In this document: positions 41,542 to 63,928 of the stretch, piece by piece
Numbering within the stretch: the first letter of the stretch is position 1
Layout: every line of letters begins with the position of its first letter
Assembly: GCF_001027745.1 (NCBI RefSeq)
Contig: NZ_LECU01000006.1
Coordinates: forward strand, 806,001 to 870,000
From: Pedobacter sp. BMA
GTDB taxonomy: Bacteria; Bacteroidota; Bacteroidia; Sphingobacteriales; Sphingobacteriaceae
Reading direction: 5' to 3'
Length of the DNA: 64,000 nt
Translations under genes and position numbers: made by a program
The notes under the pieces: model-generated
Databases searched by the model: none
Told to the model about the DNA's origin: nothing
What the model saw: the letters and a program-made list of their open reading frames with translations, nothing else

Positions 41542-41570
41542 AAGATAAACGAATTAAATCCGTTTATCTT
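41542..41570. promoter_or_regulatory. Inverted repeat 1, likely AbiEi operator
   Basis: AAGATAAACG and CGTTTATCTT, perfect 10-bp arms, 9-bp spacer. The arms are identical to those of repeat 2. It ends 8 bp before the proposed -33 box. Confidence 0.7.
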
Positions 41571-41578
41571 GTTAATAT

Positions 41579-41609
41579 TTTGCATATTTAAATATTTTAT
41601 GTATCTTTA
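41579..41609 (+). promoter_or_regulatory. Candidate abiE promoter between the two operators
   Basis: TTTG at 41579, 19-bp spacer, TATCTTTA at 41602 (7 of 8 to TAnnTTTG). Inverted repeat 2 begins 4 bp further on, about where transcription would start. Confidence 0.55.
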
Positions 41610-41613
41610 ACAT

Positions 41614-41642
41614 AAGATAAACGAAAATAAGCCGTTTATCTT
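41614..41642. promoter_or_regulatory. Inverted repeat 2, likely AbiEi operator
   Basis: AAGATAAACG and CGTTTATCTT again, 9-bp spacer, centre 72 bp from that of repeat 1. It overlaps the expected start of transcription and lies 14 bp before the abiEi ATG. Confidence 0.7.
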
Positions 41643-41656
41643 ATTGATATTTTACA

Positions 41657-51081: not shown

Positions 51082-51112
51082 GTGCCAGAAAAAACATTCA
51101 GGTTATTTTACA

Positions 51113-51150
51113 AAAAAAAGCAACAAGGAATTTCCCTGTTGCTTTTTTTT
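51113..51150. terminator. Hairpin terminator between the two SusCD operons
   Basis: GCAACAAGG and CCCTGTTGC arms (one mismatch), flanked by A8 and T8. It can stop both the plus-strand susD and the minus-strand sulfatase transcripts. Confidence 0.88.
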
Positions 51151-51168
51151 GTACTTCATCTGCCAAAT

Positions 51169-59761: not shown

Positions 59762-60739
59762 ATGTCGAAATTTTTTTACCTTTTGTTTGCCTTTCTTTTG
59801 TCTGCAAGTGTTTTAGCAGCTCAGGAACCCGTTAGTGGCTTAGATTCGGTTGCGGCGGTAAAATATCGGTATAAAAGATATAGGGTGGATTCAGCTACAG
59901 AAGCACGTCAGGTTTTTGTTACTGATTCTTTGATGAGACATACCTGGGTATTGCCTGACAGCTTGATTAACAAGGGCGCTCTGCTTGATACACTTCAGAA
60001 AGAATACATTTATCCTAAACTTGATTTACTTGCCTGGCAACACCAATACCAGCACTTAAAGAAAAAAGCAAATCCTTACCAGCTGGGTACCCGTATAAGA
60101 AAGGGGAATGTAGGGTTATTGGGTTTTGTATTTCTAATGCTGATTATTTTTGCGATCCTGAAGTATGCATTTTCGAAGCAGCTATATGCCATTGTCCAAT
60201 CTTTCTTCAGCAACCGGATATTAAATAACATTAATAAAGAAGATAACCTGTTTAGCTCCTGGCCGTTTTTGTTGCTTTTCGTGCAATTTGGTTTTGTGTT
60301 CGGAATGTTCTTCTTTCTGGTTGCGCAGTGGAAAGATATGTATCAGGCAAAAGACGGATTTAAGTTTTTCTTTACCATCTCTGTTACTATAATTGTTTTT
60401 TATGCCCTTAAGATGTTGGTATTGAGGTTTTTGGGTTTTCTGTTTAATGTTCAAAAACCAGTAGGTGAATACATCTCCATATTGTATTTGAGTTATTTTA
60501 ATGCTTCACTTTTGTTTATTCCCCTTGTAGTGTCGTTTGCATTATCCCCACTTAAATATGGTGAAGCATATATTGTGTTGGCATTCTTATTGTTAGGACT
60601 GATTTTTGCTATACAATTATTGCGGGCGGGAGTGACGATACTTTCAAATAATAAGTTTTCAAAAATGCATTTAATTTTGTACTTTTGCGCCCTCGAAATA
60701 TGTCCTATTTTAATACTAATTAAAACTATAGGATTGTAG
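59762..60739 (+). CDS. DUF4271 membrane protein
   Basis: A 325-residue protein with a signal peptide (SKFFYLLFAFLLSASVLAAQ). A short periplasmic stretch is followed from about 120 by six or seven membrane helices (GLLGFVFLMLIIFAILKYAF, WPFLLLFVQFGFVFGMFFFL and others). It fits DUF4271, a Bacteroidota family often next to uroporphyrinogen-III synthase and gliding genes. Its role is unknown. It lies 14 bp upstream of the hemD-like gene, in the same direction, so the two are likely co-transcribed. Confidence 0.85.
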   Translation: MSKFFYLLFAFLLSASVLAAQEPVSGLDSVAAVKYRYKRYRVDSATEARQVFVTDSLMRHTWVLPDSLINKGALLDTLQKEYIYPKLDLLAWQHQYQHLKKKANPYQLGTRIRKGNVGLLGFVFLMLIIFAILKYAFSKQLYAIVQSFFSNRILNNINKEDNLFSSWPFLLLFVQFGFVFGMFFFLVAQWKDMYQAKDGFKFFFTISVTIIVFYALKMLVLRFLGFLFNVQKPVGEYISILYLSYFNASLLFIPLVVSFALSPLKYGEAYIVLAFLLLGLIFAIQLLRAGVTILSNNKFSKMHLILYFCALEICPILILIKTIGL

Positions 60740-60753
60740 CAGGAAAAAGGAAA

Positions 60754-61524
60754 ATGCAAGAAAAGAACGACTCTAGAATTCGCAAAGTGAAAAGTATTTT
60801 GGTTACATTACCAAAACCTGAAACAGAAAAATCTCCTTACTACGATTTGGCTAAAAAACACAACTTAAAGGTTGATTTCAGGTCATTTATCCATGTTGAA
60901 GGAGTGCCGGCAAGGGACTTTAGGAAAGATAAGATTAACCTTGCTGATTTCACAGCGGTTATTTTTACCAGCCGCAACGCAGCGGATCATTTCTTCAGAA
61001 TCTGCGAAGAAATGCGTTATGAAGTACCAGCTGAGCTGAAGTATTTTTGTCTGTCTGAAACTATCGCGTTGTATTTACAGAAATATATACAATACCGTAA
61101 ACGCAAAATCTTTTTTGGAAAGCAAACAGCGGCCGACCTTGCGGAAGTGTTAAAAAAACATGCAAGCGAAAAATTTTTGTACCCATGTTCTGACGTAGCT
61201 ACAGAAGATACGATGAAATTTCTGGAAAAAAGCGGATATGATTTTACACCGGCTGTATTATTTAGAACGGTAGTGAGTGACTTGTCTGATCTTGCTGAAG
61301 TTTTTTACGATGTAATCGCTTTCTTTAGTCCTTCCAGTATTCAATCTTTATTTAAAAATTTCCCTGATTTTAAGCAGAATAATACCCGTATTGCGGCTTT
61401 TGGTGTGAATACCAGTAAGGCTTGTACGGACATGGATCTGATTGTAGATATTGCAGCACCAACCCCGGGTGTTCCCTCAATGACTATGGCTATTGAGAAT
61501 TACATTAAAGTATCTAATAAATAA
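60754..61524 (+). CDS. Uroporphyrinogen-III synthase-like protein
   Basis: A 256-residue protein of the HemD family. Two alpha/beta halves are seen: SILVTLPKPETEKSPYYDLA and FTAVIFTSRNAADHFFRICE in the first, then FLYPCSDVATEDTMKFLEKS with VIAFFSPSSIQSLFKNFPDF and IAAFGVNTSKAC in the second. The enzyme closes and rearranges hydroxymethylbilane in tetrapyrrole synthesis. Sequence divergence in this Bacteroidota subgroup is large and the gene sits beside gld genes rather than other hem genes, so an altered role is possible. No hem gene neighbours it. Confidence 0.78.
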   Translation: MQEKNDSRIRKVKSILVTLPKPETEKSPYYDLAKKHNLKVDFRSFIHVEGVPARDFRKDKINLADFTAVIFTSRNAADHFFRICEEMRYEVPAELKYFCLSETIALYLQKYIQYRKRKIFFGKQTAADLAEVLKKHASEKFLYPCSDVATEDTMKFLEKSGYDFTPAVLFRTVVSDLSDLAEVFYDVIAFFSPSSIQSLFKNFPDFKQNNTRIAAFGVNTSKACTDMDLIVDIAAPTPGVPSMTMAIENYIKVSNK

Positions 61525-61538
61525 TACATTAAATATTT

Positions 61539-61571
61539 TTTGTTAGTCAATACAATAAATGCGTAACTTTG
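61539..61571 (+). promoter_or_regulatory. Promoter of the gldK-gldL-gldM operon
   Basis: TTTG at 61539, 21-bp spacer, TAACTTTG at 61564. Both boxes match the Bacteroidota consensus (TTTG, TAnnTTTG). Transcription would begin near 61578, leaving about 170 nt of untranslated leader before gldK. The -7 box lies at the end of the left arm of a palindrome. Confidence 0.6.
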
Positions 61572-61600
61572 CTGTTATTAGAGAGTTACGCATTTATTGT
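61552..61600. repeat. Perfect 17-bp inverted repeat over the gldK promoter
   Basis: ACAATAAATGCGTAACT at 61552-61568 and its exact complement at 61584-61600, with a 15-bp spacer. No T-run follows on either strand, so it is not an ordinary terminator. It spans the -7 box and the expected start site, fitting an operator. Confidence 0.85.
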
Positions 61601-61746
61601 AACAAGAATATTAGGCTCCGTAGTTTTGATAAACCAACTTTCTTTGTTAAATAATACTATTTGGCGTAAAATATTTGCTTTTGTTGATAATTTCAGTGAT
61701 TTTTGAGAAAATTGCTCCTAATCGTGCTTTGCACACCATAACGAAT

Positions 61747-63072
61747 ATGAAGAAAATTTACCTTCTAGCTATTGTAGGTATAACTGTATTGCTGGCAAGC
61801 TGTGGCCATGGAGGTCAGGGTGAGTTAGTAGGGTCTTATAACCGAAAATTTAAAAATAACAGAATTCCATTAGGAATGGTTTACATCCCACCGGGCCATA
61901 CTCCGCTGGGAGGGGCAGACGAGGATATCACGTTTTCGCAGAACGGCCCGAGCAGAATGACAACAATCAGTGCATTCTTCATGGATCAGACGGAAATTTC
62001 AAATGCAGAATACCGCCAGTTTACAAACTGGGTACGTGACTCGATTGCAGTAACGATGATGGGGATGCCGCAGCAATTTACAGTTACGCCAAGAAACGGT
62101 TCTGCTACAGCTGTTGGTGGCGATAAGTATATCGACTGGAAAAAAGTGGGCTACAACGGAGCAAACATTTGGCGTGCAAGAGGAAGAGGTGGCAATCAGG
62201 CGCAGCAAAGTCAGTTAGATGGAATGTATTACTCTGGTTTGGACGCCCTTCCAGGTAAAAAAGAATTTGACATCCGTAAATTTGTTTACACATATGCGGA
62301 GCTTAACATGGATAAGGCTGCAGCTGGTCATAAAGACCCCAATAGCAAACGTCAAGACTATATCGATCGCTTTACTATTGCCATCTATCCTGATACGATG
62401 GTTTGGAAAACCGATTATTCCTATTCGCAAAATGATCCGATGGTTCGCGGTTATTATAACCATCCCTCATATGATGATTATCCTGTTGTTGGTGTGAGCT
62501 GGGAACAAGCTAAAGCATTTTCACACTGGAGAACCAGACTTTACGACGGTGTTGCGGCATCAAGAAGATTGCCGGTAGGATCGAGGTCTGACTACAGACT
62601 GCCTGCTGAAACTGAGTTTGAATATGCTGCACGTGGGGGCAATACTAAAACCAAGTATCCATGGGGCGGACCATATATCAGAAATACGAAAGGCTGTTTA
62701 CAAGCTAACTTTAAACCAGGACGCGGAGATTATTCGAGTGATGGGGGTATTTATACTGTAGGCGTAAGGTCTTACTTCCCGAATGACTATGGCTTGTATA
62801 ACATGGCTGGAAACGTTGCCGAGTGGACTTTGACAGCTTATAACAAAAGTGCCTCGCCATTACTTCACGATTTAAACCCAAATTTTACTTATGATGCGGC
62901 CGCTGGCGATAGCAAATATAAAAAGCGAAAAGTGGTTAAAGGTGGTTCGTGGAAAGACACTGCTTACTTTTTACAAAATTCAGTTGGAACATATGAATAC
63001 CAGGATACGCAAAGATCTTACATCGGATTCAGATGCGTTTCATCATACCCGGGCACAGATTTAAGAAATTAG
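61747..63072 (+). CDS. gldK: Gliding motility/T9SS lipoprotein GldK
   Basis: A 441-residue lipoprotein with lipobox ending LLASC and an FGE/SUMF1-like fold: MVYIPPGHTPLGGADEDITF, MDQTEISNAEYRQFTNWV, YPVVGVSWEQAKAFSHWRTR, MAGNVAEWTL, KGGSWKD and YIGFRCV. GldK (PorK) with GldN forms the periplasmic ring that contacts the outer membrane in the type IX secretion/gliding machine. The reading frame opens at 61675, but ATG 61747 (MKKIYLLAIVGI) is the lipoprotein start. It leads gldL and gldM, as in other Bacteroidota. Confidence 0.95.
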   Translation: MKKIYLLAIVGITVLLASCGHGGQGELVGSYNRKFKNNRIPLGMVYIPPGHTPLGGADEDITFSQNGPSRMTTISAFFMDQTEISNAEYRQFTNWVRDSIAVTMMGMPQQFTVTPRNGSATAVGGDKYIDWKKVGYNGANIWRARGRGGNQAQQSQLDGMYYSGLDALPGKKEFDIRKFVYTYAELNMDKAAAGHKDPNSKRQDYIDRFTIAIYPDTMVWKTDYSYSQNDPMVRGYYNHPSYDDYPVVGVSWEQAKAFSHWRTRLYDGVAASRRLPVGSRSDYRLPAETEFEYAARGGNTKTKYPWGGPYIRNTKGCLQANFKPGRGDYSSDGGIYTVGVRSYFPNDYGLYNMAGNVAEWTLTAYNKSASPLLHDLNPNFTYDAAAGDSKYKKRKVVKGGSWKDTAYFLQNSVGTYEYQDTQRSYIGFRCVSSYPGTDLRN

Positions 63073-63118: not shown

Positions 63119-63928
63119 ATGGCAGCAAAAAAACAACCAAGCTGGTTACACGTAGCGATTTCATGGGGAGCAAGTATTGTAATTATCGGAGCGTTATTCA
63201 AAATCCTTCACATTGGAGGTATTGTGGGTAATTATATGATAGGTCTTGGTCTTGGCGTAGAGGCTTTCTTATTTTTCTTAACAGGATTTTTTCCACCAGA
63301 ACCTGAACCAGCATGGGAAAAAGTATATCCTGAATTAAGAGAAGATTTTAAAGGTGAATTACCGGTTGCTTCTGCAAGACCTGTTGCAGCTGTTTCTTCA
63401 GCTTCAAATACCGCAGCTTTAGACAAAATGTTATCTGATGCTAAGATCGGTCCTGAATTAATTGAAAGCCTTGGTTCTGGTTTACGTACCTTTGGCGATA
63501 AAGTGAGTTCAATTTCAAATGTTGCTGACGCAGCTACTGCAACGAACGAATTTACAGGTAAAGTTAAAACTGCTTCTGCAGGTTTCGACAGCTTAAGTTC
63601 TTCTTTTGAAAAAGCTACTGCTAATCTGAAAGCTATGGGCGACAGCAATGTTGACACTCAGGCATACCACGATCAGGTAAATAATCTGGCTAAAAATCTT
63701 TCTGCTTTAAATGCAGTATATGAATTAGAGTTACAGGATTCAAGCGCGCACTTAAAATCAATGAATAAGTTCTATTCAAACTTATCACTTACCATGCAGA
63801 ACTTTAATGAATCAATGGAAGATTCAAAACAGTTTAAAGAGGAAGTTAACAAGTTGGCTAAAAACTTATCATCACTTAATGCGATTTATGGTAACATGTT
63901 ATCGGCTATGAATAGCCCGCGTGTTTAA
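63119..63928 (+). CDS. gldL: Gliding motility/T9SS inner-membrane motor protein GldL
   Basis: A 269-residue protein with two N-terminal membrane helices at about 8-27 and 35-55 (AISWGASIVIIGALFKILHI, MIGLGLGVEAFLFFLTGFF). A cytoplasmic tail follows that is mostly helix and coiled coil with two NLAKNLSALNA-like repeats (NNLAKNLSALNAVYELELQD, NKLAKNLSSLNAIYGNMLSA). GldL and GldM form the proton-driven motor of the type IX system; a buried Glu in helix 2 (Glu about 49) is the conserved charge. It lies 46 bp after gldK. Confidence 0.95.
   Translation: MAAKKQPSWLHVAISWGASIVIIGALFKILHIGGIVGNYMIGLGLGVEAFLFFLTGFFPPEPEPAWEKVYPELREDFKGELPVASARPVAAVSSASNTAALDKMLSDAKIGPELIESLGSGLRTFGDKVSSISNVADAATATNEFTGKVKTASAGFDSLSSSFEKATANLKAMGDSNVDTQAYHDQVNNLAKNLSALNAVYELELQDSSAHLKSMNKFYSNLSLTMQNFNESMEDSKQFKEEVNKLAKNLSSLNAIYGNMLSAMNSPRV

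Follow-up and report, generated by a model that had tools for sequence, protein, structure and literature searches.

In Bacteroidetes, promoters recognized by sigma-A have the consensus TTTG at -33 and TAnnTTTG at -7, as given in PMC7366714. According to PMC4800418, SigP of P. gingivalis bound to a number of T9SS promoter regions, but did not bind upstream of porK. The main text of PMC9723704 does not mention gldK. Literature searches in a limited collection found no paper on gldK together with uroporphyrinogen-III synthase, and none on gldK together with promoter, transcription start site and type IX secretion. Operators of dimeric regulators typically, though not necessarily, have further sites in the genome. 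Like intrinsic terminators, the palindrome analyzed here is a hairpin found soon after a stop codon, with A-rich sequence ahead of the stem and T-rich sequence behind it, and the A/T tracts lie partly within the palindrome itself. It differs from them in its imperfect T-tract, in a nominal loop of 15 nt which partly pairs as RNA, and in the extra conservation of its 5' arm.

The window (the whole stretch of DNA that was analyzed, 64 kb) contains the palindrome between a hemD-like gene and gldK, and the features of the locus are as follows.

59762-60739, + strand: gene for a DUF4271 protein (Pfam PF14093, E 5.4e-37), the first of the upstream pair
60754-61524, + strand: hemD-like gene (HEM4, uroporphyrinogen-III synthase family; Pfam PF02602, E 8.8e-32)
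61551-61568, + strand: left arm of the hairpin, a perfect inverted repeat with covariation, which changes less than the right arm
61569-61583, + strand: loop, whose ends as RNA pair on (U-G, U-A, then C-G, U-A beyond a bulge)
61584-61601, + strand: right arm of the hairpin, with a T-rich tract as its outer half (61593-61600)
61679-61714, + strand: conserved promoter-like block (TTTTGTTG, 20 nt, (T/G)AAAATTG), the putative main promoter of gldK
61724-61734, + strand: small inverted repeat (GTGC-TTT-GCAC), presumably within the 5' leader of gldK
61750-63072, + strand: gldK (PorK/GldK ring lipoprotein; TIGR03525, E 8.7e-165, above cut-off), with its ATG at 61750
63119-63928, + strand: gldL (TIGR03513, E 2.5e-68, above cut-off)

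The hemD-like gene scores under the NCBIfam equivalog cut-offs, the gldK product has a lipoprotein-like start (MKKIYLLAIVGITVLLASC), and gldM is not reached since the window ends first, after gldL.

The palindrome starts 26 nt past the hemD stop on the same strand, and its two arms of 18 bp are 100% complementary with 15 nt between them. The original prediction had described a perfect 17-bp palindrome with a 15-bp spacer and no T-run, embedded in the gldKLM promoter and more likely serving as binding site of a protein that controls type IX secretion and gliding genes. The repeat itself was confirmed, with one pair more than claimed; a strict T-run is indeed absent, and the tail after the GC-containing core (TTTATTGT) still has 6 T in 8. 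No other perfect repeat in the window (loop 3-40) is as long. The Rfam search of 61400-61800 gave eight matches, all far under gathering scores, and no described RNA family was found there. Inspection by eye also led to the rejection of a small ORF within the arms, since its start codon (ATG at 61559) is missing from relatives that have AAAAGCG.

Searching the intergenic DNA against 145 genomes of the genus gave matches in 60, and 57 of these were aligned (G079, G150 and G158 were dropped for short matches). The distance from the hemD stop to the gldK start is 217-226 bp in 53 aligned genomes and 182-213 bp in the remainder. A recognizable stem is kept in 46 of the 57, with loop length differing by 1-3 nt among relatives. 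These 46 main rows (L032-L061 and L063-L078) were picked by eye for their aligning arms, while L079-L089 were left outside the pair counts. In the other 11 genomes the left arm is recognizable, with AATAAA kept, and the right arm is decayed, changed or differently paired. Absence of the repeat from related genomes had been named as grounds for abandoning the original prediction; the palindrome is conserved in relatives, and the prediction therefore withstood this check. Just 3' of the palindrome, TGTAACAAGAATATTAGG (61598-61615) is kept as TGTAACGAAAATATTAG in L082, L087 and L088, and with one further difference in L086; the hairpin core is altered in all four.

Changes in the arms were counted by parsimony over 16 pairs (61551/61601 and 61552/61600 excluded) on a tree from about 350 bp of flanking coding sequence. 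Eight double substitutions retained Watson-Crick pairing. Pairs were lost to G-U 20 times and to A-C nine times (19 versus 5 for the nine inner pairs, and 12 versus 5 without the innermost pair), and 26 more losses were other mismatches, mainly in the outer arm. In a DNA element, G-T and A-C breaks are expected to be equally tolerated, whereas of these two only G-U forms a pair in + strand RNA. The covariation score was 0.131, while the shuffled mean was 0.085 (sd 0.005, 0 of 500 shuffles as high, the shuffles leaving relatedness among genomes in place), and sliding the partner out of register gave 0.019-0.080. A simpler measure, the number of pairs changed on both sides, does not stand out: it was 7, against 4.9 in shuffles (38 of 500 as high), and a slide of +2 gives 10. 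Pairing continues into the nominal spacer, where the first pair as RNA is U-G in 39 and U-A in 4 of the 46 rows, the second is U-A in 38 and U-G in 5, and the pairs further in are C-G (37/46) and then U-A (40/46). The + strand folds more stably than the - strand in 44 of the 46; among the 11 omitted rows it does so in nine, with a mean difference near zero. The region 61525-61625 has a folding z-score of -6.6, and the hairpin is stable as RNA of the hemD strand, as in intrinsic terminators. Considering the preference of G-U over A-C, the pairing within the spacer and the + strand folding, the target of selection therefore appears to be an RNA hairpin of the + strand. This hairpin is contained only in transcripts leaving hemD, which fits the earlier remark that a hairpin could form only in hemD read-through. 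Covariation together with strand bias in relatives can help to distinguish RNA hairpins from operators bound by proteins.

The palindrome is most likely (probability about 0.6) the 3'-end RNA hairpin of a DUF4271-hemD transcript, presumably shared by the two genes, and a modest intrinsic (Rho-independent) terminator. RNA polymerase exiting hemD would transcribe both arms, which would fold into a stem of about 20 bp while the T-rich outer right arm is being made. Part of the hemD transcripts would end at the hairpin, at an efficiency that is probably modest, and hemD transcription would be kept out of gldK and gldL, which may be served by their own promoter-like block just upstream of gldK. The tail agrees in part with termination: the 8 nt after the core stem hold on average 5.7 T, while about 3.0 are expected from base composition (46 rows), but a run of 5-8 T is present in only 10 of the 46 tails. 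The tail letters vary (TTTATTGT, TTTTTTTT, TATTATTG, TTATTTTG), while few changes occur in the left flank ACAATAAA, which gained no matching A run where T runs arose in the outer right arm.

We also calculated a terminator-type score after the d'Aubenton Carafa formula, which serves for comparison only. The window copy scores 5.5, and the maximum of 100 mononucleotide shuffles is -11.8. Ten other scores in the window, obtained from eight gene-end hairpins of which two were scored on both strands, are 18.6-56.5 in nine cases and 5.3 in one, against which the score of the palindrome is low. Among the 46 rows, 19 score above 0 on the + strand and 4 on the - strand (another count gave 18 of 57). 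The imperfect T-tract and the 11 of 57 genomes with a decayed or re-paired right arm count against a terminator, and a terminator alone does not account for the left arm changing less than the right.

Terminators are also found in the same gap of other lineages. In 6 of 16 more distant loci of the genus (L024, L029, L030, L031, L091, L092), the hemD-gldK gap contains a hairpin with 7 consecutive T behind it, and in L025 the stem shows compensating changes and the tail is shorter. A second set, of named genomes, comprised 80 loci, 55 of them with hemD upstream on the same strand; the two sets probably share some genomes. Scores above 0 were found for only 21 of the 55 gaps on the + strand and 8 on the - strand (raw counts, without shuffle control). 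Four of the 55 gaps (L148, L149, L170, L177) exceed 1.1 kb, so that hemD is probably non-adjacent there, and one of these, L170, counts towards the 21 with a score of 0.1. Examples of loci with a hairpin and T-tract no more than 60 nt from the hemD stop are L132 (Mucilaginibacter), L138 (Pedobacter), and L141, L144 and L145 (Sphingobacterium). The gap terminators in other Pedobacter, Sphingobacterium and Mucilaginibacter are canonical and unrelated to the palindrome.

The same covariation and strand evidence would be expected from an RNA hairpin that does not terminate, and instead shields the hemD mRNA at its 3' end or marks where hemD-gldK read-through is processed, and the weakness of the T-tract in many relatives agrees with this. 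However, the tail remains T-rich despite its letter changes and other lineages have canonical terminators in this gap, which makes such a role unlikely.

The two arms have not evolved alike. In the 46 rows the left arm shows 1.4-1.8 changes per site, the right arm 3.9-5.3 and the proximal block 1.2, while over all 57 genomes the values for left and right are 2.0 and 7.5 in the outer arm, and 4.8 and 6.4 in the core. Judging from these rates, the left arm is constrained by something besides pairing, and a distal promoter or a regulator site is possible there, since the arm is conserved beyond the needs of pairing. It is conceivable, though with low probability, that the element has a dual role: its RNA would terminate hemD transcripts, and the DNA of the 5' arm would be under selection of its own as a distal promoter of gldK or a regulator site. 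In that case, read-through into the type IX secretion operon and initiation of its transcription would be mutually exclusive.

Slightly less probable still is a direct overlap of promoter and terminator, in which the left arm with its TAACTTT box is also a distal promoter of gldK, so that hemD transcripts end and a second gldK transcript starts at the same place. The boxes are present as the original prediction claimed, with TTTG (61539-61542) 21 nt before TAACTTTG (61564-61571), and in this respect the left arm of the window genome resembles sigma-A promoters. TAACTTT is kept in 44 of the 57 genomes, and the low rate of change in the left arm would agree with such an overlap, but over all 57 the lead of the left core narrows to the values above. 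In relatives the two boxes are poorly conserved. The distal -7 box is exactly TAACTTTG in 17 of the 57 and TAACTTTA in 19, its last base is G in only 20, and TTTG occurs 17-23 nt before it in three (the window genome, L076 and L080), which argues against a gldKLM promoter at the palindrome.

The block at 61679-61714 is better conserved. The best-conserved stretch of the gap, 61670-61716, shows 1.2 changes per site (46 rows), while 61602-61669 shows 7.4. The block reads TTTTGTTG, 20 nt, TAAAATTG in most aligned genomes, TTG is found at a spacing of 17-23 nt in 52 of the 57, and TTG-N20-TAAAATTG occurs in all 16 more distant loci of the genus. By the consensus in PMC7366714, this is a fair -33/-7 pair. 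From conservation and consensus we infer that this block, about 80-115 bp beyond the palindrome, is the gldK promoter, which shifts the likely promoter about 140 bp downstream. At 61707, the first base of the -7-like box, the window genome has G and the other 56 aligned genomes have T (GATAAAATTG block). The window genome has this G together with the exact TTTG-N21-TAACTTTG pair in the palindrome, a combination which possibly reflects a shift in promoter use, or nothing.

About as improbable as the overlap is the view of the original prediction, that the palindrome is a DNA operator on both arms of which a dimeric regulator would sit and control a gldK promoter in the left arm. The perfect 18-bp arms, their overlap with the TAACTTTG box and the strong conservation of the left arm speak for it. 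However, the arms of such an operator would be free of strand bias in tolerated mismatches, and those of the palindrome evolve like a + strand RNA stem (G-U over A-C, 20 versus 9; U-G pairs in the spacer; + strand better in 44 of 46). The variation of the loop by 1-3 nt, the T runs of the outer right arm unmatched by A runs in the left flank and the presence of TTTG at promoter spacing in only 3 of 57 genomes also stand against it. No second copy of the core with the same spacing was found in the 5.04-Mb genome at up to 3 mismatches, so the palindrome is a single copy in this search. When 150 of 3055 candidates in the genome were scored with a covariance model, the next match on the + strand (C6:446625, E 0.27) was an ordinary terminator, and a weak match was found on the - strand (C6:733994, E 1.6). 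Control of type IX secretion and gliding genes by the repeat as a gldK operator is not supported, and no switch is demonstrated. The palindrome, its conservation and the hemD read-through hairpin of the original prediction stand, while the protein-binding site and the gldKLM promoter are not supported; the tempting regulatory reading of a striking palindrome is thereby corrected.

A mobile or genome-wide repeat element is not supported by the single copy found, and a chance repeat was rejected, since the 18-bp arms exceed the maxima of all 40 first-order Markov windows of equal length (longest perfect arm 9-16 bp, one value above 13; loop 3-40).

Between the proximal promoter-like block and the gldK ATG lies the small inverted repeat at 61724-61734. 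A repeat of 4-5 bp is kept there in 54 of the 57 genomes (GTGC/GCAC in 44, GTGT/ACAC in 10), while any 4-bp mini hairpin was found in 291 of 1140 control stretches. It could be a hairpin in the 5' part of the mRNA or an operator close to the start site.

Other repeats were also observed in the window. The second-longest perfect repeat, at 51109-51153, has 17-bp arms (TACAAAAAAAAGCAACA/TGTTGCTTTTTTTTGTA) separated by an 11-nt loop. It is placed between convergent ORFs and resembles a strong bidirectional terminator. Its build is like that of the palindrome, with A/T tracts on the outside and a short core that contains GC, which speaks for a terminator at the palindrome as well, but it differs in its clean run of 8 T and in its scores of 31.6 and 46.6 on the two strands, compared with 5.5. 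At 41542-41644 there are two similar inverted repeats about 70 bp apart, with the arms AAGATAAACG (41542-41570) and ATAAGATAAACG (41612-41644).
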